In this document: piece by piece, positions 18,939 to 34,435 of the stretch
Layout of the letters: the number at the start of each line of letters is the position of its first letter
Numbering within the stretch: the first letter of the stretch is position 1
NCBI GenBank assembly: GCA_030653935.1
Contig: JAURYL010000120.1
Coordinates: forward strand, 1-39,508
DNA: 39,508 nucleotides
Reading direction: 5' to 3'
Source: Pseudomonadota bacterium
Lineage (GTDB): Bacteria; Pseudomonadota; Gammaproteobacteria; Burkholderiales; Thiobacillaceae
Notes under the pieces: model-generated
What the model was told of the DNA's origin: nothing
Databases searched by the model: none
Seen by the model: the letters and a program-made list of their open reading frames with translations, nothing else
Translations under genes and position numbers: made by a program

Positions 18939-21050
18939 ATGTTCAACCAGCGCTTCCCGCGAACCCCCAATCTGTCCAGCGGTCATGCCGAAGACAAGCG
19001 CAGCGAAATACGCGCTTACTTTCATGCCACCTTCGACCGCTACGAGTCCTTGTTCGAGTCGCTGGCCAGCGACGCGGCGTATTTCCACAAGCCGATTCCG
19101 TTGCGGCATCCGCTGATTTTCTACTTCGGCCACACCGCCACGTTTTTCGTCAACAAGCTGGTGCTGGCCGGCTTGCTGAGCGATCGGATCGAGCCACGTT
19201 TCGAGTCGATGTTCGCCATCGGCGTCGATGAAATGAGCTGGGACGATCTCGGCGAGGCGCATTACGACTGGCCGACGGTGGCCGAGGTTCGTGCCTATCG
19301 AGGGCAAGTGCGCGTGGCGGTGGATGGCCTCATCGCCCGCCTGCCGCTGACCCTGCCGATCACCTGGGATCACCCTTGGTGGCCGATCCTGATGGGCATC
19401 GAGCACGAGCGCATCCACCTGGAAACCTCATCGGTCCTGATCCGCCAGCACGCCCTGAACCATGTACGTCCGCACCCGGCCTGGGCGCCCTGCCGCGACA
19501 CTGGCTCGGCGCCCACCAACGAACTGGTTGAGGTGCCGGCGGGCCAGGCGCTGCTCGGCAAGGAACGCGACGATCCCTGGTATGGCTGGGACAACGAATA
19601 CGGCCGCCACGAGGCCGACATTCCGGCATTCCAGGCCGCGCGTTATCTGGTGAGCAACGCTGAATTCCTGGAGTTCGTCAGTGACGATGGCTACGCCAAC
19701 GATGCCTGGTGGCCCGAGGAGGGGCTGGCCTGGCGCAATTTCACCGAGGCTCGCCATCCCACCTTCTGGTTGCCCGATGGCAATGGCTGGCGCTTGCGCC
19801 TGATGCTGGAAGAAATCGCCATGCCCTGGGACTGGCCGGTCGAGGTCAATTTCCACGAGGCCAAGGCGTTCTGTAACTGGAAAGCCGCGCATAGCGGCGC
19901 GAAGGTGCGCTTGCCCAGCGAGGACGAATGGCACCACCTGGCCGCGTTCGCCGGCGTGGCCGAGGTGCCGCAAGCGGGTGCGGCGGCCGCCAATCAGCAT
20001 CTTGACCACGGTGCTTCCTCCTGCTCGGTTAACCGTTTCCCGCACGGCCCGTTGTTCGACGTGGTGGGCAATGTCTGGCAATGGACCGAAACGCCGATCT
20101 ATCCGTTCGACGGCTTCCAGGTGCATCCGCTCTACGATGACTTCACCACGCCCACTTTCGACGAGCGCCACAACCTGTTCAAGGGCGGCTCCTGGATTTC
20201 CTGCGGCAACGAAAGCCGCCTGGCCGCGCGCTACGCCTTCCGCCGCCATTTCTTCCAGCACGCCGGCTTTCGCTATGTGGTGGGCGACCCACCCCCGACG
20301 CCGCCGCCCTCGCACTACGAGAGCGACAAATTCCTGTCCGAATACGCCGAGTTCCATTTCGGTGACGACTATTTCGGCGTGCCCAACTTCTCCCAGGCGC
20401 TGGCCGAACTGGCGATCCAGGCCATGGGCGAGCGGCCGAAACACCGCGCCCTCGACCTCGGTTGCGCGGTGGGACGCGCCAGCTTAGAACTGGCGCGCGT
20501 CTTCGACGAAGTGGAAGGCATCGACTTCTCCGCGCGTTTCATCGGCCTCGGCGCGGAATTCGCGCAACGCGGCGTGCTGCGTTACACCCTGGTCGACGAG
20601 GGCGAACTGGTGTCCTACCGCGAGCGGCGTCTGGCCGATCTCGGCCTGGAGGCGACGAGTGGCAAGGTGAGTTTCTTCCAGGGCGATGCCTGCAATCTGA
20701 AACCGCGTTTCACCGGCTACGACCTGATCCTCGCCGCCAACCTCATCGACCGCCTATACAGCCCGGCCAAGTTCCTCGACAACGTGCATGATCGGGTAAA
20801 TCCCGGTGGCCTGCTGCTGATCGCCTCACCCTACACCTGGCTCGTGGAGCACACGCCTCGGGAAGAATGGATTGGCGGCTACAAGCGGGATGGCGAGAAG
20901 GTCACCACACTGGACGGCTTGAAAACCCACCTCGGCAAGCACTTCAGGCTGCTGCAAGGCCCGCTCGAAGTGCCCTTCGTCATCCGCGAAACCCGGCACA
21001 AATTCCAGCACACGCTTTCCGAGGTGACGATTTGGGAACGTTTGCCATGA
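18939..21050 (+). CDS. ovoA: 5-histidylcysteine sulfoxide synthase / methyltransferase OvoA
   Basis: OvoA starts ovothiol biosynthesis: an iron-dependent, oxygen-using coupling of cysteine to histidine C5 to give the sulfoxide, and N-methylation of the thiohistidine by a C-terminal domain. The 703-residue chain shows all three parts: a DinB-like helical bundle (about 25-170) with H65 and the HxxxHxE iron motif H156, H160, E162 in EHERIHLE; a formylglycine-generating-enzyme-like domain (about 190-455, VPAGQALLGKE to GFRYVVGD); and a SAM methyltransferase (about 480-703) with motif I LDLGCAVGRAS. Length and domain order match known OvoA and distinguish it from EgtB, which lacks this methyltransferase. 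Its stop overlaps the ovoB start (ATGA at 21047). Confidence 0.95.
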   Translation: MFNQRFPRTPNLSSGHAEDKRSEIRAYFHATFDRYESLFESLASDAAYFHKPIPLRHPLIFYFGHTATFFVNKLVLAGLLSDRIEPRFESMFAIGVDEMSWDDLGEAHYDWPTVAEVRAYRGQVRVAVDGLIARLPLTLPITWDHPWWPILMGIEHERIHLETSSVLIRQHALNHVRPHPAWAPCRDTGSAPTNELVEVPAGQALLGKERDDPWYGWDNEYGRHEADIPAFQAARYLVSNAEFLEFVSDDGYANDAWWPEEGLAWRNFTEARHPTFWLPDGNGWRLRLMLEEIAMPWDWPVEVNFHEAKAFCNWKAAHSGAKVRLPSEDEWHHLAAFAGVAEVPQAGAAAANQHLDHGASSCSVNRFPHGPLFDVVGNVWQWTETPIYPFDGFQVHPLYDDFTTPTFDERHNLFKGGSWISCGNESRLAARYAFRRHFFQHAGFRYVVGDPPPTPPPSHYESDKFLSEYAEFHFGDDYFGVPNFSQALAELAIQAMGERPKHRALDLGCAVGRASLELARVFDEVEGIDFSARFIGLGAEFAQRGVLRYTLVDEGELVSYRERRLADLGLEATSGKVSFFQGDACNLKPRFTGYDLILAANLIDRLYSPAKFLDNVHDRVNPGGLLLIASPYTWLVEHTPREEWIGGYKRDGEKVTTLDGLKTHLGKHFRLLQGPLEVPFVIRETRHKFQHTLSEVTIWERLP

Positions 21051-23468: not shown

Positions 23469-23864
23469 TCAGGCGCCCGGCCACAGGCGGGCGAAGTCAA
23501 ACGAAAGCTGGCGGTGGTGCCGGACGGACAGTAGGTACACCGTGGCGTCGGTCTCCGATGCGGTGTACAGCATCAGGTAGTCGCCATGCAGGTACTCGCG
23601 CAGCGCCTGGGCAGCGCCGACCGGCAGCGCGGCGAGTTGGGTCAGCGCTTCGGCCGATTGCGGCGGGTTGTCCAGGTAACGCCGGCCGATGCGCGGAAAC
23701 CGGCGCAGGTTGGGGATCACCGTCGCGCGCAGCTCGGCCAGCAGGGCGTCGAAGGCAAAACCCGCATCGGCCTCCAGCAGGAACGCCTCGATGGCGTCGA
23801 GGCGTTCCAGGAAACTCGCGGTCAGTTCGACCCGGTAGAGGCCCGCATCCACGCTTTTAGCCAC
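23469..23864 (-). CDS. RelE/ParE-family toxin
   Basis: A 131-residue protein of the RelE/ParE superfamily: an N-terminal strand-helix (YRVELTASFLERLDAIEAFL) and a C-terminal sheet with LREYLHGDYLMLYTA and LLSVRHHRQL, the typical end of ParE/RelE toxins. It is longer than many members owing to the central helical segment. I chose the GTG at 23864, which overlaps the antitoxin stop by eight bases as expected for a coupled pair; the frame continues further up only through antitoxin coding sequence. Whether it cleaves mRNA (RelE) or poisons gyrase (ParE) cannot be told. Confidence 0.8.
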   Translation of the reverse strand: MAKSVDAGLYRVELTASFLERLDAIEAFLLEADAGFAFDALLAELRATVIPNLRRFPRIGRRYLDNPPQSAEALTQLAALPVGAAQALREYLHGDYLMLYTASETDATVYLLSVRHHRQLSFDFARLWPGA

Positions 23865-24180
23865 GTTTCTTGGCGGGCTTGCCTGACTGGGCAGAGGCCC
23901 GGCACTGTTGCAGCCGCTCGATGGCGCCATCGGCCTCAAAGGTTCGGCCGGCGGCAATGTCGGCCAGGCCGCGCCGGGCATCGTCGATCAGCAGCAGGTG
24001 GATGCGCTCGCCTTCCAGCCGGTGGTAGTAGTCCAGCCGGCCAGCGTCGATCAGGGCGACGTAACTTTCGCCGTTCTTGGTGATGATCTTCTCGGCGCCG
24101 GCCTTGGCCTGATCGGCCAGCTCGGAGAGGTTGGCGCGTGCCTGGGTGAACGGCACCACGTCGCCGGTAGAAAAGCCCAT
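23857..24180 (-). CDS. Phd/YefM-family antitoxin
   Basis: A 107-residue Phd/YefM-type antitoxin, first gene of the pair. Its N-terminal DNA-binding region reads VVPFTQARANLSELADQAK followed by KIITKNGESYVALI, the usual Phd/YefM core. The C-terminus is disordered and basic (SGKPAKKRG) and overlaps the toxin start. The start at ATG 24180 has a good ribosome binding site (AAGGAG); the longer upstream frame lacks family resemblance. It is expected to neutralise the toxin by direct binding and to autoregulate the operon. Confidence 0.85.
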   Translation of the reverse strand: MGFSTGDVVPFTQARANLSELADQAKAGAEKIITKNGESYVALIDAGRLDYYHRLEGERIHLLLIDDARRGLADIAAGRTFEADGAIERLQQCRASAQSGKPAKKRG

Positions 24181-24300
24181 GGCCAACTCCTTGCAGATAG
24201 ATAACAGAATTCTGTGCAGCATACTGCGCGACATGGACCTTCGTCCATACCGGACGCGTGAGTCTGCAATACGGGCCACGCCCTACAGTACACACGAGGT

Positions 24301-24711: not shown

Positions 24712-24969
24712 TCAGCGGCACTCGCCGCGCGCGATCTTGCGCAGCAGGGGCGCCAGCGTCTCGGCCAGCGCGCCGCGCTTCAGGGTCAGCGATTTGTCGA
24801 CGTGGGCCTGGGCCAACTTCGGGTTGCCATTGGCCCAGGCCCGGATGGCGAGTCGGACGAGGTTTTCGGCGCGCGACTCGACAGAAAACACCAGACTGAG
24901 GTCGCAGCCACAGCGTGGGCAGAGCGCGCTTTCATTGAGGCGGCTGCGGCAGGATGGACAGCGTTCCAT
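24712..24969 (-). CDS. Small zinc-ribbon protein linked to the accessory Hsp70
   Basis: An 85-residue protein starting MERCPSCRSRL, with a four-cysteine zinc ribbon (C4, C7 and C17, C20 in LCPRCGCDL), then two helices resembling a single TPR-like hairpin (NLVRLAIRAWANGNPKLAQAHV). The start ATG 24969 is two bases after the Hsp70 stop, so the two are tightly coupled; it is the last gene of the operon. I do not recognise a named family. The zinc ribbon plus helical hairpin suggests a client- or partner-binding adaptor for the Hsp70 upstream, which is inference from position and architecture only. Confidence 0.75.
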   Translation of the reverse strand: MERCPSCRSRLNESALCPRCGCDLSLVFSVESRAENLVRLAIRAWANGNPKLAQAHVDKSLTLKRGALAETLAPLLRKIARGECR

Positions 24970-24971
24970 GC

Positions 24972-26762
24972 TCAGGCTTCCAGGTAGTAGAGCAGGTCGG
25001 CGAGGCTGTCCATGGCCATCTTCAACGCGACATCATTGGCCACATCATTGATCTCATCCCCTTGCGCGAGGGCATCCTTGACGGCTTCGATGCCGTTCAC
25101 CAGGTCTTCGCCGTCTTCCGCGCCGGCCGCCCCCAGCAGACGTTCCGCCTTTTCAATCAGGGCCTGGGCCTCCACGTGCCGGCGGCGGTGTTCGGCGTTG
25201 TTGCCAGCCTCGCCGCCCGGCGTTGAAGGGGCCTCGCCGAACAGGGCACTTACCCGGTCCCGCGCGGCGTCGAGCTGGTCGGTTTCCTGGCGCGCCAGGG
25301 CGTTGGCGATGGTGATGGAGCGTTCCAGGCCGGTTTCCTTTTCGCGCGTGGTGACGTGGAGGATGCCATCGAGGTCGAGCGAGAAGCTGGTGACGATGCG
25401 GCTGCCGGCGGGGGCGTCGGCGCGCAGGCCGTCAATGGTGAACTGGCCGATTTCGACGTTGTTGAGCGCGTCGCGATCTTCACCTTGATATACGCCGACA
25501 TCGATCCGTTCCTGTCCATCGTAGGCGGTATAAAACACCTCGCTCTTGGAGACGGGGATAGGGGTGTTCTTGCGGATCAGAGGGATGAAGCAGTAGAAAT
25601 ATTCTTCGCCGTCCAGCAGGCCGATGGCGGAGGTGCCGAAGGTGTAGGGGGTGACATCGACCAGCACTCTGGAGGTCTGGTCGCCATTGATGACGCCGGC
25701 CTGGATGGCCGCGCCCATGGCCACGCATAGATCGGGATTCAACTCGCCGCGCGGCGCCAGGCCCAGCGCTTCCTCCAGGCGGCGCGCCACCAGGGGCGTG
25801 CGGGTGGCGCCGCCGACCAGCAGGATTTCGTCGATGTCGGACACGGTCAGATGCGCGCCGGCGAGGGCGATATGGGTGGCGTCCAGCGTCTCGGCGATGT
25901 AGGGCTCGATCATCGCTTCGTAGTCGTCGCGCGAAAGTTCCACTGCCAGATGCACCGGCTCGCCCTGATGCTGGAGCAGGTATTCCTCGGCGAGCATGGC
26001 GTAGGGGCGGTCGGACAGCGTGATCTTGGCGGCCTCGGCGGCGCGTTGCAGGCGCGCCATGGCGATGCCGGACTGGCGCGCGGCATGGGCCACCTCGGCG
26101 CCGTGGCGCGCCTGGAGATGGTCGAGGGCGAAATCGACAATTCTCTGGTCGAAGTCGTCACCGCCCAGATGGTTGTTGCCGTGGCTGGCGAGCACTTCCA
26201 CCACGTCGCCTTCCAGGTTGACCACGGACACGTCGAAGGTGCCGCCGCCGAGGTCATACACCAGCGCCCGGCGCGCGCCCTGGTGTCCGGTTTCGTAGGC
26301 CAGCGCGGCGGCGGTGGGTTCGTTGATGATGCGCACCACCTCCAGCCCGGCGATTTCACCGGCTTCGCGGGTTGCCTGGCGCTGCGCATCGGAGAAATAG
26401 GCGGGCACGGTGATGACCGCCTTGTTCACCGGCTGTCCCAGGTGGTTCTCGGCGATTTGCTTGAGCCGGCGCAGGATCAGGGCGGAGATTTCCTGCGGGC
26501 TGTAGTCCTTGTCGCCCAGGCTGACGCGCGTGGCTTCGCCCATGCGCCGCTTGATCGAGCGCACCGTGCGTTCCGGGCGCAGTACATATTGGTTGCGGGC
26601 GGCTTCGCCGATCAGCAGGGCGCCGTCGTCGGCCAGGCCGACCATCGAGGGCAGGATGCGCACCCCCTCGGAGATGGCGATGACTTCCACGCGTCCGTCG
26701 CGCACCACGGCGACTTCGGAGTTGGTGGTACCCAGATCGATGCCGACGATAATTTCACTCAT
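24972..26762 (-). CDS. Accessory Hsp70 chaperone (DnaK-like)
   Basis: A 596-residue Hsp70, shorter than the 643-residue canonical DnaK encoded at 32504. The ATPase domain is complete: phosphate-1 [38 protein letters not shown], phosphate-2 [14 protein letters not shown] and adenosine motif LVGGATRTPLV. The interdomain linker reads VLVDVTPYTFG rather than the usual [11 protein letters not shown]. The substrate domain follows and the helical lid is shortened, ending in LLYYLEA with no DnaK-type acidic tail. These differences and its own operon resemble specialised Hsp70s such as HscC. It lies five bases after the GrpE-like gene and two before the zinc-ribbon gene. Nucleotide-driven chaperone cycling is well supported; its clients are unknown. 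Confidence 0.92.
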   Translation of the reverse strand: MSEIIVGIDLGTTNSEVAVVRDGRVEVIAISEGVRILPSMVGLADDGALLIGEAARNQYVLRPERTVRSIKRRMGEATRVSLGDKDYSPQEISALILRRLKQIAENHLGQPVNKAVITVPAYFSDAQRQATREAGEIAGLEVVRIINEPTAAALAYETGHQGARRALVYDLGGGTFDVSVVNLEGDVVEVLASHGNNHLGGDDFDQRIVDFALDHLQARHGAEVAHAARQSGIAMARLQRAAEAAKITLSDRPYAMLAEEYLLQHQGEPVHLAVELSRDDYEAMIEPYIAETLDATHIALAGAHLTVSDIDEILLVGGATRTPLVARRLEEALGLAPRGELNPDLCVAMGAAIQAGVINGDQTSRVLVDVTPYTFGTSAIGLLDGEEYFYCFIPLIRKNTPIPVSKSEVFYTAYDGQERIDVGVYQGEDRDALNNVEIGQFTIDGLRADAPAGSRIVTSFSLDLDGILHVTTREKETGLERSITIANALARQETDQLDAARDRVSALFGEAPSTPGGEAGNNAEHRRRHVEAQALIEKAERLLGAAGAEDGEDLVNGIEAVKDALAQGDEINDVANDVALKMAMDSLADLLYYLEA

Positions 26763-26767
26763 GTTTG

Positions 26768-27421
26768 CTAGACCTTTTTGTTGACGATGACTTCGGCGGC
26801 GCGCAGCAGCTCGCCGTGTTGGTAATAACCGCGCAGTACCTCACGCAGCACTTGGCCGTCGGGCTGGTCGGGCACCGCTTCGACGCCCACCGCGCGCATC
26901 CGATGCGGGTCGAGGCGCTGGCCGATGGCTTCCTGTGGACGCACCTGGTGTCCGTCCAGCAATTCATCCACGCGCCGCAGCGTGAGGGCCTGGCCCTGCG
27001 CCAGGCTGTCGGCGAAGCGCGTCTCGGCCGGAACCAGTCGCGCCAGGAAGGCGGGACGGTGCGCGGCGCCGGCATCCACGCCCGCTGCCAGGCGATCACG
27101 CAGGTCGAGCAGGCCCAGCAGCAGGCCGCGTTCGGCCTGGCGCTTGCCCGCGCTGGCCTGTTCGCGCGCCCGTTCCAGCTCCCGATTCAGGCGTTCGTTC
27201 TGTTCGCGCAGGACTTCGCCGAACTGGCGCATTTCTTCGAGCATGGCCTTGAACTGGCGTGACTCCAGGCGGATTTCGTTCTTCAGCGCGGCCATTTCGG
27301 CCAGCAGGGTATGCAGATCGACCGGGGCGTCGCCGGCCTCCGTATCGCTTTCCTCAACGTCGTCTAGGTAGGCGCGGAATGCCTCGATCAGGCCTTCCTT
27401 TTGGGCGGGGTCGAGCATCAT
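26768..27421 (-). CDS. GrpE-like nucleotide exchange factor of the accessory Hsp70 system
   Basis: A 217-residue protein with an acidic N-terminus, a long coiled coil (about 45-100, rich in E, R, Q and L heptads), the LLGLLDLRDRL helix, and a C-terminal GrpE-type beta domain with DPHRMRAVGVEAV and VLRGYYQHGELLRAAEVIVNK, corresponding to the canonical FDP and QKGY-LRPAMV motifs. It should release ADP from the Hsp70 encoded five bases downstream. Two ATGs stand in tandem (27421 and 27418) behind GAGG. The first ten codons (MMLDPAQKEG) are repeated upstream at 27551-27581 and 27709-27739, part of a 158-bp tandem duplication that separates this gene from the J-like gene. Confidence 0.85.
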   Translation of the reverse strand: MMLDPAQKEGLIEAFRAYLDDVEESDTEAGDAPVDLHTLLAEMAALKNEIRLESRQFKAMLEEMRQFGEVLREQNERLNRELERAREQASAGKRQAERGLLLGLLDLRDRLAAGVDAGAAHRPAFLARLVPAETRFADSLAQGQALTLRRVDELLDGHQVRPQEAIGQRLDPHRMRAVGVEAVPDQPDGQVLREVLRGYYQHGELLRAAEVIVNKKV

Positions 27422-27478
27422 CCTTGGTTCCTCAGTCGAACGCAGCTGGACGGCCCGGCAAATCCGCAACCGGAGAGC

Positions 27479-27545
27479 GTAGGGCGGAACGCGAAGCGGT
27501 TCCGCCAATGAAAACGGCGGATCGCCCTTCGGGCATCCGCCCTAC
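27479..27545. repeat. Nested palindrome of the GTAGG class (copy 1)
   Basis: Outer arms GTAGGGCGGA (27479-27488) and TCCGCCCTAC (27536-27545) enclose two smaller hairpins, GGCGGAAC/GTTCCGCC and GGCGGAT/ATCCGCC, giving a cruciform-like fold. The second copy is at 27637-27703. Confidence 0.85.
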
Positions 27546-27636
27546 CCATGCCTTCCTTTTCGGCGGGGTCGAGCATCATTCTTGATTCCTCAGTCGAACG
27601 CAGCTGGACGGCCCGGTAGATCCGCAATCGGGGAGC

Positions 27637-27703
27637 GTAGGGCGGAACGCGAAGCGGTTCCGCCAATGAAAACGGCGGATCGCCCTTCGGGCATCCGCCC
27701 TAC
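27637..27703. repeat. Nested palindrome of the GTAGG class (copy 2)
   Basis: Same element as 27479-27545, shifted by 158 bases and without visible change in its arms. Confidence 0.85.
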
Positions 27704-27733
27704 CCATGCCTTCCTTTTGGGTGGGGTCGAGCA

Positions 27734-28027
27734 TCATGGTTTTTCACCCAACACCCGGCGCAGCCGTTGCTCCGACGGACGCCGCGGTTGGAATGTGGCG
27801 CTGAGCGCGTCCAGCACGTCTTCCGGTGTCGGGGCCGTGGTGTCGAACAGGGCGTGGGAGCGGCGCGCCTGGGCACTGGCGATGGCTTCGTAGGCGGCAC
27901 GCAACTGCTCGAAGCGGTGCCGGTCACGCTCGGGTGGGCAAGCGCGTATCGCCGCCAGATAGGCGAGGCGGATGGTTTCGTCGTCGGCGGTGGCGGGCAC
28001 GCCGAGGAGGCGGTAAGGGTCAGTCAT
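27734..28027 (-). CDS. Small J-domain-like protein lacking the HPD motif
   Basis: A 97-residue protein with the outline of a J domain: YRLLGVPATADDETIRLAYL (helices I-II) and FEQLRAAYEAIASAQARR (helix III, compare canonical FKEINEAYEVL). The loop between helices, where J proteins carry the HPD that triggers Hsp70 ATP hydrolysis, reads RACPPERDRHR, so the tripeptide is absent. ATG 28027 overlaps the TPR gene stop by eight bases. Its own stop at 27734 overlaps an ATGATG that begins a copy of the GrpE-like first codons, the probable ancestral junction. It should bind the dedicated Hsp70 or the TPR protein; without HPD it may not stimulate ATP hydrolysis in the usual way. The C-terminal 35 residues are unassigned. 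Confidence 0.75.
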   Translation of the reverse strand: MTDPYRLLGVPATADDETIRLAYLAAIRACPPERDRHRFEQLRAAYEAIASAQARRSHALFDTTAPTPEDVLDALSATFQPRRPSEQRLRRVLGEKP

Positions 28028-30503
28028 CGAACAGGTTTCTCTGGTTAATATCCGAAGGTTTGCGTGGCCCCGGTTTGCGTGGGGCCGGCGCCGGGACGTC
28101 GCCAAGTCGCGCTTGTTGCGCCATCATTTCGACCAAGGCGCGGGCGAACTCCTTGTTGTTGCCACCCAGTTCCTTGCGCAGGGCATCGAACGTCTTCTTG
28201 CCCATCGCCTGGCGCGCCATGCTGAACAGCGCCTCCTCGCCGCCCATATGCAGCAGCAACTCGAACATCGCACCCGGATCGTCATTCATCAGCCCGCCGA
28301 CGAAGTCACCCTCATCCTCCGGGTAGAAGCTATCCGACTCGACGGGATGGAGCAGATCCTGGATGCGCTGGAAAGTGCGCCGATCACCTTGAGCGCGGGC
28401 TGCCTCGGCGGCATCTTCGAGGTCGTATTGCATCCGCTCGGGGATGCGGTACGGCATGTTGGCGTATTGAGCCATGGCCTTGAAATAGACGAAGAGGGGT
28501 TGTCGCGGCCGCTGTTTCAGCGCGGCATCGGCATAGAGGCGGAGCAGTTCACTTTCCTTGCGGCGCAGCCAGGCTTCGCAAATCAGGCGCTGCTCGGACT
28601 CGGCATAGCGGCCGGCCGCCGCCCGCCTGAGCGCCGGGCGCAGGGGATTCAAGGCGTTGCGCAAGGTCGTGTCGCGCAAGGTTGTGTCCATCTCGCGCGC
28701 GGCTTCGAGCGCTCGGGCCAGGGCGACCACCGTCGCCGGGGCGGGGGTGGCGGCCAGATCGACCTTTCCTTGCTTCAGCAACTTGGCCGCATCCAGTCCC
28801 AGCCGGCCCGCTTCCAGGGCCAGATGGAAGCCCCCCAGCAAGGCCCCCCCCAGGTCGGCGACCACGTCACGGATAGCGGTATCGGCGCTCGCCGGGTCGT
28901 CGCCGGCGAGGGCGCGCAACAGGTTCAGCGTCGCGCCATCTTCCGAACCGCGCAGCCATTCCGCCGCCGCCTCCAGTTCCTTGCGCGCCGACGGGAGGTT
29001 TTTCGCCTTGATCTGCTTGCGCGCGTGGGAGAAATGGGCTTGGCCGATCAGCCGCCGCACCTTGGGGTTGATGGGGTCGAGTTCCAGCACCCGCTTGGCC
29101 AGCCCCACGGCTTTCTTGAAGGCTTTGCCGGCGAGCGCCACCCGCACGGCTTCGAGCAAGAGCTCGGCATCCTTGGGAAAACGCGGCAACGCCTGGTCAA
29201 GGCGGGCGCGCGCATGCTGGAGCGCACCCGCATGGCGATGCTCCGCGATCAGCCGTAACTGGGTGTCGCGTTGATCGGGATCGAGATCGACACTGCGCTC
29301 CAGGCAAACGATAGCGTCCGTAAGCAGCGCGCCGGCCTCACCCAGGGCCGCCAGATCCATCCCCGACAGGCGCCGCCAGATCAGCGCCGCGTGCCGCTTC
29401 TTTTCAGGATTGCCGCCCAGCAATTCGGCCATGCGCCGCCAGTGGGGCGTGGCCGGGCCGCGTTCGCCGCGCGCTTCGACCGCCTGGGCGGCGAGGTGTG
29501 ACCGCTCCACTTCCGGCAGGGCGCCGAATATGTCGGTATGGGACTTCTGCCGATTCGCCGCATGGGGCAGTAATTGCCGGCAGAAATTCGCCGCCATGCC
29601 CTCGGGCAGCACACGCCGATGGCGCGCGAGCAGATCGAAAAACTGCCCGGGGTTGGGGTGGTCGCCCAATTTGGCGAGTTCCAGCAGCAGGGGGCGCAGG
29701 GGGTCCGGGCAACCTTTGAGATCCAGCACCAGTTGCCGGCCGACCTCGTCGAGACCGTGCAATGCCGTCAGCCAACGGCCAGCGGGCAACACCGCGCAGC
29801 GCAATGCCGCAGCCAGCCGCTCGAATGGGCCGTCGGCCGGCAGGCGGGCAATCACCTCAGTTGCCCTGTCGGTTGCCGCTGCGGGATCCGTTGTCAGCAG
29901 CGCCAGCGCCTTGAGCAGCGGCTTCAAATCGCGATATGGCGAACGAAACGGGATCGCCTGGAGGCATTCACCCAGCGCGGCCCAATCACCTTGGCCGTAT
30001 GCCTGCAACGCCGCCAGCGCCGCTGGCCGGTGGCGCAGCAGTGCGCTGTCGGCGGGTAGATCGGGGAGTGGTGTGTTCTGCGGCAAGGTCAGCAGTGTGG
30101 CGGCGAGGCGCGTTTCCAGTTCGGCGCGCGCCGCTTCGGGCAGGGAGGAATCGGCCAGCAGCCGCATCGCCTCGCCCCGTTCCCCCGCCTGCATGAGCCA
30201 GGTCAGGTAAGGCCCTTCGACGAGCGGCTTGCCGCATATTTGCCGGCGGTTACGCCACAACACCAGCGCTTCCTTGAGCATGCCCTTGGCGGCCAGACTG
30301 TGGGCGCGACCGGCGTAACACGCGGCCAAACCTTCGACCCAGATGGGCCGTCGCTCACGCTTGAGCAGTTCCTTGTAAAGCTCGATTGCCTCCTTGTGGC
30401 GAGACAGGGCCAATTCCGCCTCGGCCCGCGCGGCCAATGCGGTGCTGTCCATGTCATGGGGTGACGGCGGTTTTTTCGGGTTGGCTTTGGCCTTGCGTGA
30501 CAT
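28020..30503 (-). CDS. Large TPR protein of the accessory Hsp70 operon
   Basis: An 827-residue, mostly helical protein with no signal peptide. Tetratricopeptide-like repeats are visible near the N-terminus (ALSRHKEAIELYKELLKRE, AKGMLKEALVLWRN) and in the middle (KAFKKAVGLAKRVLELDPINP, then SARKELEAAAEWL). The C-terminal region has an acidic patch (FYPEDEGDFVGGLMNDDPG), a conserved-looking MARQAMGKKTFDAL segment and a proline/lysine-rich tail. It heads the operon and overlaps the J-like gene by eight bases, so a role as scaffold or client recruiter for the Hsp70 is likely, but unproven. The start is uncertain: ATG 30503 has a weak ribosome binding site and lies within a heat-shock-like promoter; ATG 30452 (residue 18) is the alternative. 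Confidence 0.8.
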   Translation of the reverse strand: MSRKAKANPKKPPSPHDMDSTALAARAEAELALSRHKEAIELYKELLKRERRPIWVEGLAACYAGRAHSLAAKGMLKEALVLWRNRRQICGKPLVEGPYLTWLMQAGERGEAMRLLADSSLPEAARAELETRLAATLLTLPQNTPLPDLPADSALLRHRPAALAALQAYGQGDWAALGECLQAIPFRSPYRDLKPLLKALALLTTDPAAATDRATEVIARLPADGPFERLAAALRCAVLPAGRWLTALHGLDEVGRQLVLDLKGCPDPLRPLLLELAKLGDHPNPGQFFDLLARHRRVLPEGMAANFCRQLLPHAANRQKSHTDIFGALPEVERSHLAAQAVEARGERGPATPHWRRMAELLGGNPEKKRHAALIWRRLSGMDLAALGEAGALLTDAIVCLERSVDLDPDQRDTQLRLIAEHRHAGALQHARARLDQALPRFPKDAELLLEAVRVALAGKAFKKAVGLAKRVLELDPINPKVRRLIGQAHFSHARKQIKAKNLPSARKELEAAAEWLRGSEDGATLNLLRALAGDDPASADTAIRDVVADLGGALLGGFHLALEAGRLGLDAAKLLKQGKVDLAATPAPATVVALARALEAAREMDTTLRDTTLRNALNPLRPALRRAAAGRYAESEQRLICEAWLRRKESELLRLYADAALKQRPRQPLFVYFKAMAQYANMPYRIPERMQYDLEDAAEAARAQGDRRTFQRIQDLLHPVESDSFYPEDEGDFVGGLMNDDPGAMFELLLHMGGEEALFSMARQAMGKKTFDALRKELGGNNKEFARALVEMMAQQARLGDVPAPAPRKPGPRKPSDINQRNLFDD

Positions 30504-30651: not shown

Positions 30652-30701
30652 GCCAGGCCGGGCGTTCTTATTGAGCCGGCTGTTCTTCGGCCGCCTGGGC
30701 A
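30652..30701 (-). pseudogene. Remnant of a vapB 3' end
   Basis: About 50 bases match the 3' end of the intact vapB gene (31450-31505) with roughly eight differences, encoding AAEEQPAQ, a stop, then ERPA, in place of [13 protein letters not shown]. It abuts the metallo-hydrolase remnant, making a chimera of two broken genes. Confidence 0.65.
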
Positions 30702-30938
30702 AAAATCATCATCCCCGGCCACGGCCCGCTGATAACTACGGCAGATGTCGGCAAACTGCACCAGCGCATGGCCCGCCTCTACGCCGGCACCGAAGCCGGT
30801 TACAAGGCTGGCCTCACCGACGGCTAAATCCGCAAGAAGCTTGACCTCACCGAATGGAAGCCGCTGCACCATTTCGCGGAACAAATGGGCGGCAACATCA
30901 ACAAGGCCTACCTGGAGATTGAGGCGGCGGCGTTCTGA
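30702..30938 (+). pseudogene. 3' remnant of an MBL-fold hydrolase gene
   Basis: Seventy-nine codons correspond to the last third of the intact gene at 22290-23210, from IIPGHGPL to the shared end NKAYLEIEAAAF. A TAA replaces a glutamate codon after LTDG, and the signal peptide and the HxHxDH metal site are missing, so it is not functional. Nucleotide identity with the intact copy is high, near 87 per cent by eye. Confidence 0.9.
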
Positions 30939-30948
30939 GGGGGAACGA

Positions 30949-31030
30949 TAGGATGGGTTGAGCGATAGCGAAACCCATCAAAGCATCGGCCGGCGAGGTG
31001 ATGGGTTTCGCTATCGCTCAACCCATCCTA
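30949..31030. repeat. 32-bp perfect inverted repeat of the GTAGG class
   Basis: Arms 30949-30980 and 30999-31030 are exact reverse complements (TAGGATGGGTTGAGCG and onward) with an 18-base loop. The right arm ends nine bases before the vapC stop codon, so the hairpin may terminate vapBC transcripts. A single related arm occurs at 31795-31816. Confidence 0.9.
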
Positions 31031-31039
31031 CGCGGGCTG

Positions 31040-31438
31040 TCACAGCAGCCAATCCTCGATGCTCAACCCCTCCACGCGCTCGAACTCCTGGACGTTGTGG
31101 GTTACCAGAATCATGTCGCGGGCCTTGGCCTGGCCGGCGATCAGCACGTCGTAGGGGCCGATGGGTGTGCCCTTCGTGGCCAGCAGGGCGCGGATGGCGC
31201 CAGCTTGGCGGGCGTCCTCGCGGTCGAACTCCAGAACCTCGAATTGCAGGGCATCCACCAGGGTCAGATTGCGTTCGCTGCGCTGGCTCTTGAAGGCGCC
31301 ATAGAAAAGTTCGTGGGCGACGATGGCGGAAATACAAACCTGCGCGGGGGTGAGTTGGCGGATGCGCCGCGAGGGGCGCGAATCCTTGTCGTTCAACAGG
31401 GCGATGACCGTGTTGGTGTCGAGCAGGTAGCGTTTCAT
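31040..31438 (-). CDS. vapC: VapC-type PIN-domain toxin
   Basis: A 132-residue PIN-domain ribonuclease. Acidic metal ligands of the family are visible: D7 in YLLDTNTVIALL, the glutamate in SAIVAHELFYG, the aspartate in IGPYDVLIAGQA and the later THNVQEF segment. VapC toxins cut specific RNAs, often initiator tRNA or 23S rRNA. The start overlaps the vapB stop (ATGA at 31435-31438). The gene looks intact, from the DTN motif to the end EDWLL. The RNA target cannot be predicted from sequence. Confidence 0.92.
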   Translation of the reverse strand: MKRYLLDTNTVIALLNDKDSRPSRRIRQLTPAQVCISAIVAHELFYGAFKSQRSERNLTLVDALQFEVLEFDREDARQAGAIRALLATKGTPIGPYDVLIAGQAKARDMILVTHNVQEFERVEGLSIEDWLL

Positions 31439-31680
31439 CGGAACAGTTCGTCCAGGCCGGGGCGTTCTTGTTGAGCCGGTTGCTCTCCGGCCGCCTCGAC
31501 AAAATCCTGGTCGAGCGCGCCGCAGATGGCATCCAGCCAGTCCCAGTTTTCCGCCAGGGGTTCGAGGATGACGGCATTGCCGTGGCGGCGGATACGAACT
31601 TCCTGTTCCTCGAAACGGAAATCTTTGGGCAAACGCACCGCTTGTGAGCGTCCGGACCAGAATATTTTTGCGGTATCCAT
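31435..31680 (-). CDS. vapB: VapB-type antitoxin (AbrB fold)
   Basis: An 81-residue antitoxin with the N-terminal swapped-hairpin AbrB-type DNA-binding domain ([19 protein letters not shown], then [14 protein letters not shown]), followed by a region that would bind VapC and the C-terminus [19 protein letters not shown] 31680 has GGAG upstream. It is the first gene of the pair and should repress its own promoter. A damaged copy of its 3' end lies at 30652-30701. Confidence 0.92.
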
Positions 31681-31853
31681 GGGGGTGGCTCCAGATGAGA
31701 TATGGCAAAGAGATATATCACTATTCCGGGTTTGTTAACAAGGTGAGCACAGGCCAAGCACAAACCCGTTGCCTCACCGGTGGGTGTCATGATGGGTTTC
31801 GCTGTCGCTCAACCCAACACGGGCTTGGGGGCATCGAATATGTTCTCCCCACA

Positions 31854-32503: not shown

Positions 32504-34435
<1,932 letters not shown>

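Follow-up and report, generated by a model that had tools for sequence, protein, structure and literature searches.

Prokaryotic Hsp70 proteins were counted as three types in a 2021 review, in which it is also argued that HscA and HscC need no exchange factor any longer, as they serve few clients (PMC8215388). The systems closest to the one described here are DnaK-DnaJ-GrpE, the dedicated HscA-HscB pair and E. coli HscC with its J partners DjlB and DjlC. We analysed contig JAURYL010000120.1 (hereafter the window: a complete contig of 39,508 bases from a 3.8 Mb assembly of a Pseudomonadota bacterium), in which one minus-strand block of five genes encodes a long tetratricopeptide repeat (TPR) protein, a J-like protein, a GrpE-family exchange factor, an Hsp70 and a small zinc-ribbon protein (Table 1). 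Judged by their sequences, these proteins probably form one self-contained, dedicated Hsp70 machine, distinct from DnaK, HscA and HscC, that operates alongside the DnaK and the HscA-like Hsp70 also encoded in the genome, and in cells with the block a separate chaperone system appears to be at work. We found no prior description of the five-gene block in the open literature; subscription papers were mostly outside our reach, and an earlier description is possible.

The block shares part of its make-up with each of the known systems. As in DnaK-DnaJ-GrpE, a three-part cycle is expected, and the catalytic, linker and GrpE-loop residues are kept in the operon Hsp70, but the J-like protein (97 aa) lacks the HPD motif and leaves no room for the remaining DnaJ domains, the Hsp70 has no tail and falls in a separate clade, and the block contains two extra proteins. 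HscA-HscB is likewise a dedicated Hsp70-J pair within a functional operon, whereas HscA lacks the GrpE loop and groups with DnaK in our tree, and HscB has the HPD motif. HscC, too, is an accessory Hsp70 whose J partners, DjlB and DjlC, depart from HPD, and HscC and the operon Hsp70 have in common the deletion of DnaK residues 76-99 and an insertion in the substrate-domain loop L1,2, but E. coli HscC lacks the GrpE loop, HscC forms a separate clade, and the annotated neighbours of hscC in E. coli and on three plasmids, the gene tables of which are incomplete, include no gene for a GrpE, a TPR or a zinc-ribbon protein. As with the Hop-type TPR co-chaperones of eukaryotes, the TPR protein would be expected to work with Hsp70, and the helices of the zinc-ribbon model bear a weak, not necessarily homologous likeness to Hop TPR2A (E 0.33); the operon Hsp70, however, has no EEVD-type tail.

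Conservation and distribution of the five-gene block

An earlier note on this DNA had placed five minus-strand genes at 24712-30503, which the list of open reading frames (ORFs) confirms to the base, together with the spacings given there: the TPR and J genes overlap by 8 nt (28020-28027), while gaps of 5 nt and 2 nt separate GrpE from Hsp70 and Hsp70 from the zinc-ribbon gene. Pfam scores of the window ORFs are above the cut-offs for Hsp70, GrpE, DnaJ and TPR_19. The order TPR-J-GrpE-Hsp70-zinc ribbon, with all five genes present, was found at 65 distinct Pseudomonadota loci in total. A first scan together with family models gave 29 loci with all five in order; at L110 and L172 the gene at one end of the block is truncated by the contig edge, and at L021, where the contig start cuts the block, only the last three genes are visible. 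A search around genome G309 found the TPR gene in 58/161 genomes (G309 included) of one order, which appears to be the methanotrophs Methylococcales, and 40 of the other 57 TPR loci, hand-picked over the score range, made up a later set. All five genes were in order at 37 of these 40 (one, L269, is apparently a repeat of L022), the other three being L275 and L291, cut by contig ends, and L306, without Hsp70. The block was also present in 5/23 genomes of the window's genus, the near relatives of the window being metagenome-assembled genomes named Gallionella, Nitrosomonadales, proteobacterium or Pseudomonadota, and in three further orders (26/48, 1/13 and 1/3 genomes). Carriers include iron-bacteria, methane-eating and other bacteria, all with the same gene order.

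Co-occurrence in a fixed order had been chosen beforehand as the test of the proposal, and for the Hsp70 it was passed, in support of a private operon that supplies its own exchange factor: the order is kept across genera and families, and in a draw of 369 genomes from the class (own genome included) the TPR protein and the operon-type Hsp70 mark the same 11 genomes (hypergeometric 2.7e-21). In a draw of 398 genomes from the phylum, the TPR protein was present in 27 and the Hsp70 in 17, with 15 in common (hypergeometric 3.8e-18); the two genomes with only the Hsp70 have the end of a TPR gene at a contig edge (G571, 9e-14) or an unassigned 493-aa ORF in the place of the TPR gene (G604). The distance matrices of the five proteins agree with each other (r 0.71-0.95, 29 loci).

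Outside the Pseudomonadota, the Nostoc plasmid NZ_CP151103.1 has TPR, DnaJ-domain, GrpE, Hsp70 family and TPR proteins annotated in the same order, matching our family models for J (2e-16), GrpE (1e-36), Hsp70 (2e-204) and zinc ribbon (4e-14), and its last gene encodes two Cys pairs as well as TPR repeats; the Cyanobacteria were sampled through a plasmid collection only. Related Hsp70 and TPR stretches were also seen on three plasmids of one Acaryochloris strain (L330, L335 and NZ_CP071720.1). The block is partly annotated in the two plasmids that were opened and the Hsp70 frame is interrupted in the one that was read, and each copy appears to be broken or partly annotated.

The operon Hsp70 forms a separate clade and retains its GrpE loop

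In a careful tree of 40 proteins, 22 operon Hsp70s, including that of Nostoc, are on one side of a branch with 96/94 support, apart from DnaK plus HscA (100/100) and from four HscC proteins (100/100), the four references on which the HscC clade test rests. A first tree agreed, with its single HscC on a long branch. The operon-type Hsp70s of both genome draws scored at least 641 bits with the operon Hsp70 model, while the other Hsp70s that were scored reached at most 516. The window protein belongs to the Hsp70 family by its profile score and ATPase residues, but it does not reach the equivalog cut-offs for DnaK (TIGR02350, 524 bits vs 823) or HscA (TIGR01991, 407 bits vs 709) and lies outside the DnaK plus HscA clade, and no isc genes were seen among the scanned neighbours of the operon. 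The genome also has a housekeeping grpE and dnaK (dnaK 32504-34435) and one more Hsp70, on contig C62, which groups with HscA. Since the Hsp70 families sampled beside it in the tree were DnaK, HscA and HscC, the operon Hsp70 is one more type only when counted against the three of the review. Another Hsp70-like ORF of approximately 640 aa lies near the five-gene block of L317 (7120-9051, plus strand); it scores 50 bits with the operon Hsp70 model and is perhaps a member of an unclassified Hsp70 family.

The residues K70, R167, E171, T199, L391 and D393 (DnaK numbering) are invariant in two alignments (31/31 and 38/38), and D201 is kept as well as K70, E171 and T199 in 31/31 operon Hsp70s. The GrpE-signature loop missing from E. 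coli HscA and HscC is retained, with H295 kept in 29/31 and 38/38 proteins. The earlier note had described the linker as altered, which overstates the change from VLLLDVTP in DnaK to VLVDVTP here, whereas its short lid holds insofar as DnaK residues 601-638 have no counterpart in the operon Hsp70.

The partner proteins and a proposed mechanism

The J-like protein of the window scores 29.6 bits with PF00226 (cut-off 27.8), yet the HPD motif is absent from every J homologue (0/36 and 0/40 in two sets with one locus in common), the first residue never being His, and the block therefore does not contain all classical cochaperones, as had been supposed. What is kept is the acidic third residue, in 30/31 operon-linked J proteins of the first set (L103 counted) and 39/40 of the second, vs 1/5 at loci with only TPR and J (Fisher 4e-4 against the 30/31); the sole acidic case among the latter is L150, whose genome has the operon elsewhere. 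In the DnaJ-DnaK structure, as reviewed, the His contacts the linker backbone and the Asp contacts R167 (PMC8215388). Retention of the acid with loss of the His suggests a coupling that may be altered, not abolished.

With regard to the exchange factor, the GrpE family score of 70.2 bits (cut-off 25.8) extends over the whole profile. A PROSITE-like GrpE signature is matched by the window protein and by 9/31 overall, as well as by E. coli GrpE and the housekeeping GrpE of the same genome. In the window, the J and GrpE genes are separated by 312 nt owing to the presence of two copies of a 158-nt unit, in which a dispersed repetitive extragenic palindromic (REP)-like repeat is joined to the initial 33 nt of the GrpE gene. 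The 125-nt repeat part has 52 matches in the genome, the two of the window included (40/47 candidates scored), and the J-GrpE junction is thus split by a dispersed repeat; L017 and L023 have extra sequence at the same junction.

The zinc-ribbon protein has a weak Pfam match below the cut-off (Zn_ribbon_6, 0.011), and its two CxxC pairs are present in 30/30 and 37/37 homologues. It was modelled as a ribbon and three helices, with a predicted local distance difference test (pLDDT) score of 88 in the best of five models and about 75 in the others. The TPR protein was modelled as an all-helical solenoid (mean pLDDT 76, predicted template modelling score 0.43) with a tail, residues 800-827, of low confidence, and the 50 matches listed from a structure search with this model include generic TPR proteins and other proteins built of helical repeats.

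From these sequence features we infer physical partnerships, stimulation of the ATPase, nucleotide exchange and handover of a client. The long TPR protein and the small J-like protein would recognise a particular client or assembly and pass it to the dedicated Hsp70, with the J-like protein triggering ATP hydrolysis through its PP[E/D] version of HPD, in which the acidic residue could still contact the Arg that corresponds to R167 of DnaK and is conserved. Resetting of the Hsp70 would then fall to the private GrpE, via the retained GrpE loop, and the zinc-ribbon protein may be a small adaptor for the Hsp70 or for the client.

Alternative explanations

Several observations speak against a single self-contained machine. 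The TPR protein, tied to the Hsp70 in the class draw, is less strictly so in the phylum draw, where 12/27 TPR-bearing genomes lack the operon Hsp70 and have TPR alone or TPR and J; TPR and J without Hsp70 were seen at L150, L154, L156, L157 and L166, and TPR alone at further loci. Genome G135 (L115) has no GrpE between J and Hsp70, G176 has TPR and Hsp70-zinc ribbon on separate contigs, and in G949 (L306) J and GrpE follow a shortened TPR gene, with the Hsp70 missing. The first gene of the Nostoc plasmid encodes a TPR protein which is barely similar (hhalign probability 24%, E 8e-4). Absences in the genome draws are approximate, since scoring was limited to the two or three best candidates of each genome, and the agreement of the distance matrices could reflect common descent alone. 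We read the block as two modules, one for targeting (TPR-J) and one acting as motor (GrpE-Hsp70-zinc ribbon). A further objection concerns the J-like protein, as replacing the His of HPD by Gln, or its Asp by Asn, destroyed J function in the systems tested, according to the review (PMC8215388).

In view of these results, the J-like protein may have a regulatory role in place of a stimulatory one, and the operon Hsp70 would then be stimulated by a J protein of the housekeeping set. Pam16 is such an inhibitor or regulator for Pam18. This alternative, for which the loss of the His from all J homologues read speaks, is one that we take seriously while thinking it improbable: the acid is nearly always kept where an Hsp70 is encoded at the locus and seldom where it is not, and Arg167, L391 and D393 are invariant, which fits a direct contact with the J-like protein.

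A second alternative starts from the tail of the TPR protein, which might bind the DnaN sliding clamp and so bring the Hsp70 to replication or repair complexes. The published clamp-binding consensus is given as Q-aliphatic-x-[LM]-(x)-[FL] (PMC13254535), and within the last 20 residues it is matched by 18/44 TPR tails, vs a mean of 0.26 in shuffled tails (maximum 4 in 5000), 3/225 other ORFs and 18/1731 windows from the protein bodies; the 44 tails are the 47 TPR rows minus L115, L172 and L173, which are short or cut and do not end with the motif. Matching tails are concentrated at loci without the operon Hsp70 (13/15), with just 5/29 among operon-linked tails, and the matches are not independent by descent. 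A relaxed pattern, devised after some tails had been viewed, gave 33/44 vs 6/225 other ORFs. Of the later 40 loci, only one matched the published consensus and seven the relaxed pattern, six of them in one genus, so the clamp-like motif is lineage-restricted, being frequent in one order and absent from most of the loci read in the apparent methanotroph order, and was dropped as a general feature of the family. In the window itself the tail reads QRNLF, off the consensus and overlapping the stretch expected for the ribosome-binding site of the J gene, by which it may be partly explained, although synonymous codon changes within the window group leave Q and L intact.

Stand-alone TPR or TPR-J genes were found beside or near a mutL gene (L169, 5237-7075; L170, 4717-6552), a mutM gene (L150, L154, L156 and L157) or an HhH-GPD glycosylase gene (L171). 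At such loci, 7/10 Pfam-checked neighbours are repair proteins (MutL, MutM and HhH-GPD), and UV resistance is described as affected by E. coli HscC (PMC8215388). These neighbours were, however, picked by eye and noticed post hoc, come from few lineages and are not immediate neighbours in L150 and L170, and the other three of the ten are not repair proteins. We treat the clamp-binding-like tail as a lead only, and a clamp-tethered repair or replication chaperone as unlikely. We are equally doubtful of the wider proposal of a further, self-contained and apparently movable Hsp70 type that would, in several lineages and perhaps ancestrally in that of the window, be clamp-tethered by the TPR tail, so that its whole cycle would take place at complexes of replication or repair and serve their remodelling.

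Least probable is that the block belongs to the HscC systems, its Hsp70 being of HscC type, its J protein akin to DjlB or DjlC, and its other partners gained later: the two shared indels, the HPE in place of HPD in E. coli DjlB and DjlC and a short stretch shared after the motif favour it and make HscC, the nearest parallel named in the earlier note, a fair though imperfect one, but the operon Hsp70 lies outside the clade of the four HscC references, its model gives E. coli HscC 332 bits and E. coli DnaK 456, DnaK residues 291-296 are kept in it and missing in E. coli HscC, the additional genes are not annotated beside hscC of E. coli or in the incomplete tables of the three plasmids, and a deletion like 76-101 is also reported in many DnaK proteins outside Proteobacteria (PMC8215388).

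Table 1. Genes and sequence features of the five-gene block in the window
Feature	Position	Strand	Basis or remark
TPR solenoid protein, 827 aa from conserved ATG, first gene	28020-30503	minus	Pfam TPR_19 5.6e-6
J-like protein, 97 aa	27734-28027	minus	Pfam DnaJ 7.5e-7
GrpE-family exchange factor, 217 aa	26768-27421	minus	PF01025 2.2e-19, profile positions 6-165 of 165
Hsp70 of separate clade, 596 aa	24972-26762	minus	PF00012 1.2e-143, tree
Zinc ribbon (two CxxC) and three helices weakly resembling TPR, 85 aa	24712-24969	minus	
PPE in place of J-domain HPD	27929-27937	minus	alignment
QGEPVH, Hsp70 residues 266-271, counterpart of DnaK GrpE-signature loop 290-295	25950-25967	minus	alignment
QRNLF in TPR tail, resembling beta-clamp-binding motif	28029-28043	minus	fails published consensus at position 2
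158-nt tandem duplication and third partial copy, between J and GrpE	27389-27737	minus	

Genomic surroundings of the block

In 27 loci with wider flanks, no gene family outside the block was common to more than three. Sharing of flanks was mainly within a genus (L113/L309/L310 and L313/L315/L321), and L311 and L327/L328 also share theirs, with MreB-type genes upstream. Clustering of the neighbours as a clue to the client returned mostly antisense ORFs. The nearness to the housekeeping grpE-dnaK mentioned in the earlier note is real in the window, and at L013 the block likewise has a second DnaK-type Hsp70 close by, but such nearness looks incidental, since no second DnaK was present in the 27 wider flanks and no outside family recurred at more than three of them. 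PADLOC anti-phage models did not match the block, apart from PbeC (0.0065) on residues 46-124 of the GrpE ORF. A CTTGAA-type box directly precedes the TPR start at three loci (the window, L017 and L019) and is missing there at five others (L018, L015, L020, L022 and L023), and the -10 box would overlap the TPR start codon, hence a heat-shock promoter is not claimed.

Other features of the window include a pair of Phd/YefM-type antitoxin and ParE-type toxin genes just downstream of the operon (23469-24279, minus strand; Pfam 1.4e-8 and 4.5e-7), and, at 31040-31816 on the minus strand, a gene for a VapC-like PIN protein, which scores 133 bits with its NCBIfam model (cut-off 140), preceded by a small ORF that has no Pfam match. 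An inverted repeat of 55 nt, 80% complementary and with arms at 30954-31008 and 31762-31816, encloses the latter pair, and 45 nt at 31460-31504 occur again at 30660-30704. At 18939-21047 (plus strand), a protein with DinB_2, FGE-sulfatase and methyltransferase domains, which we take from its domain order to be EgtB/EgtD-like, overlaps an aminotransferase ORF.

Implications

If the dedicated machine is real, the operon Hsp70 would add one more type to the three counted in the review (PMC8215388), and it would be the only specialised Hsp70 seen here with its own GrpE. The five-gene system would thus be a test case for the argument that exchange factors are lost where few clients are served, and its conserved PP[E/D] motif a natural test of the role of the His in HPD. 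As the block is common in the order that appears to be Methylococcales, its client may be findable in organisms that can be grown.

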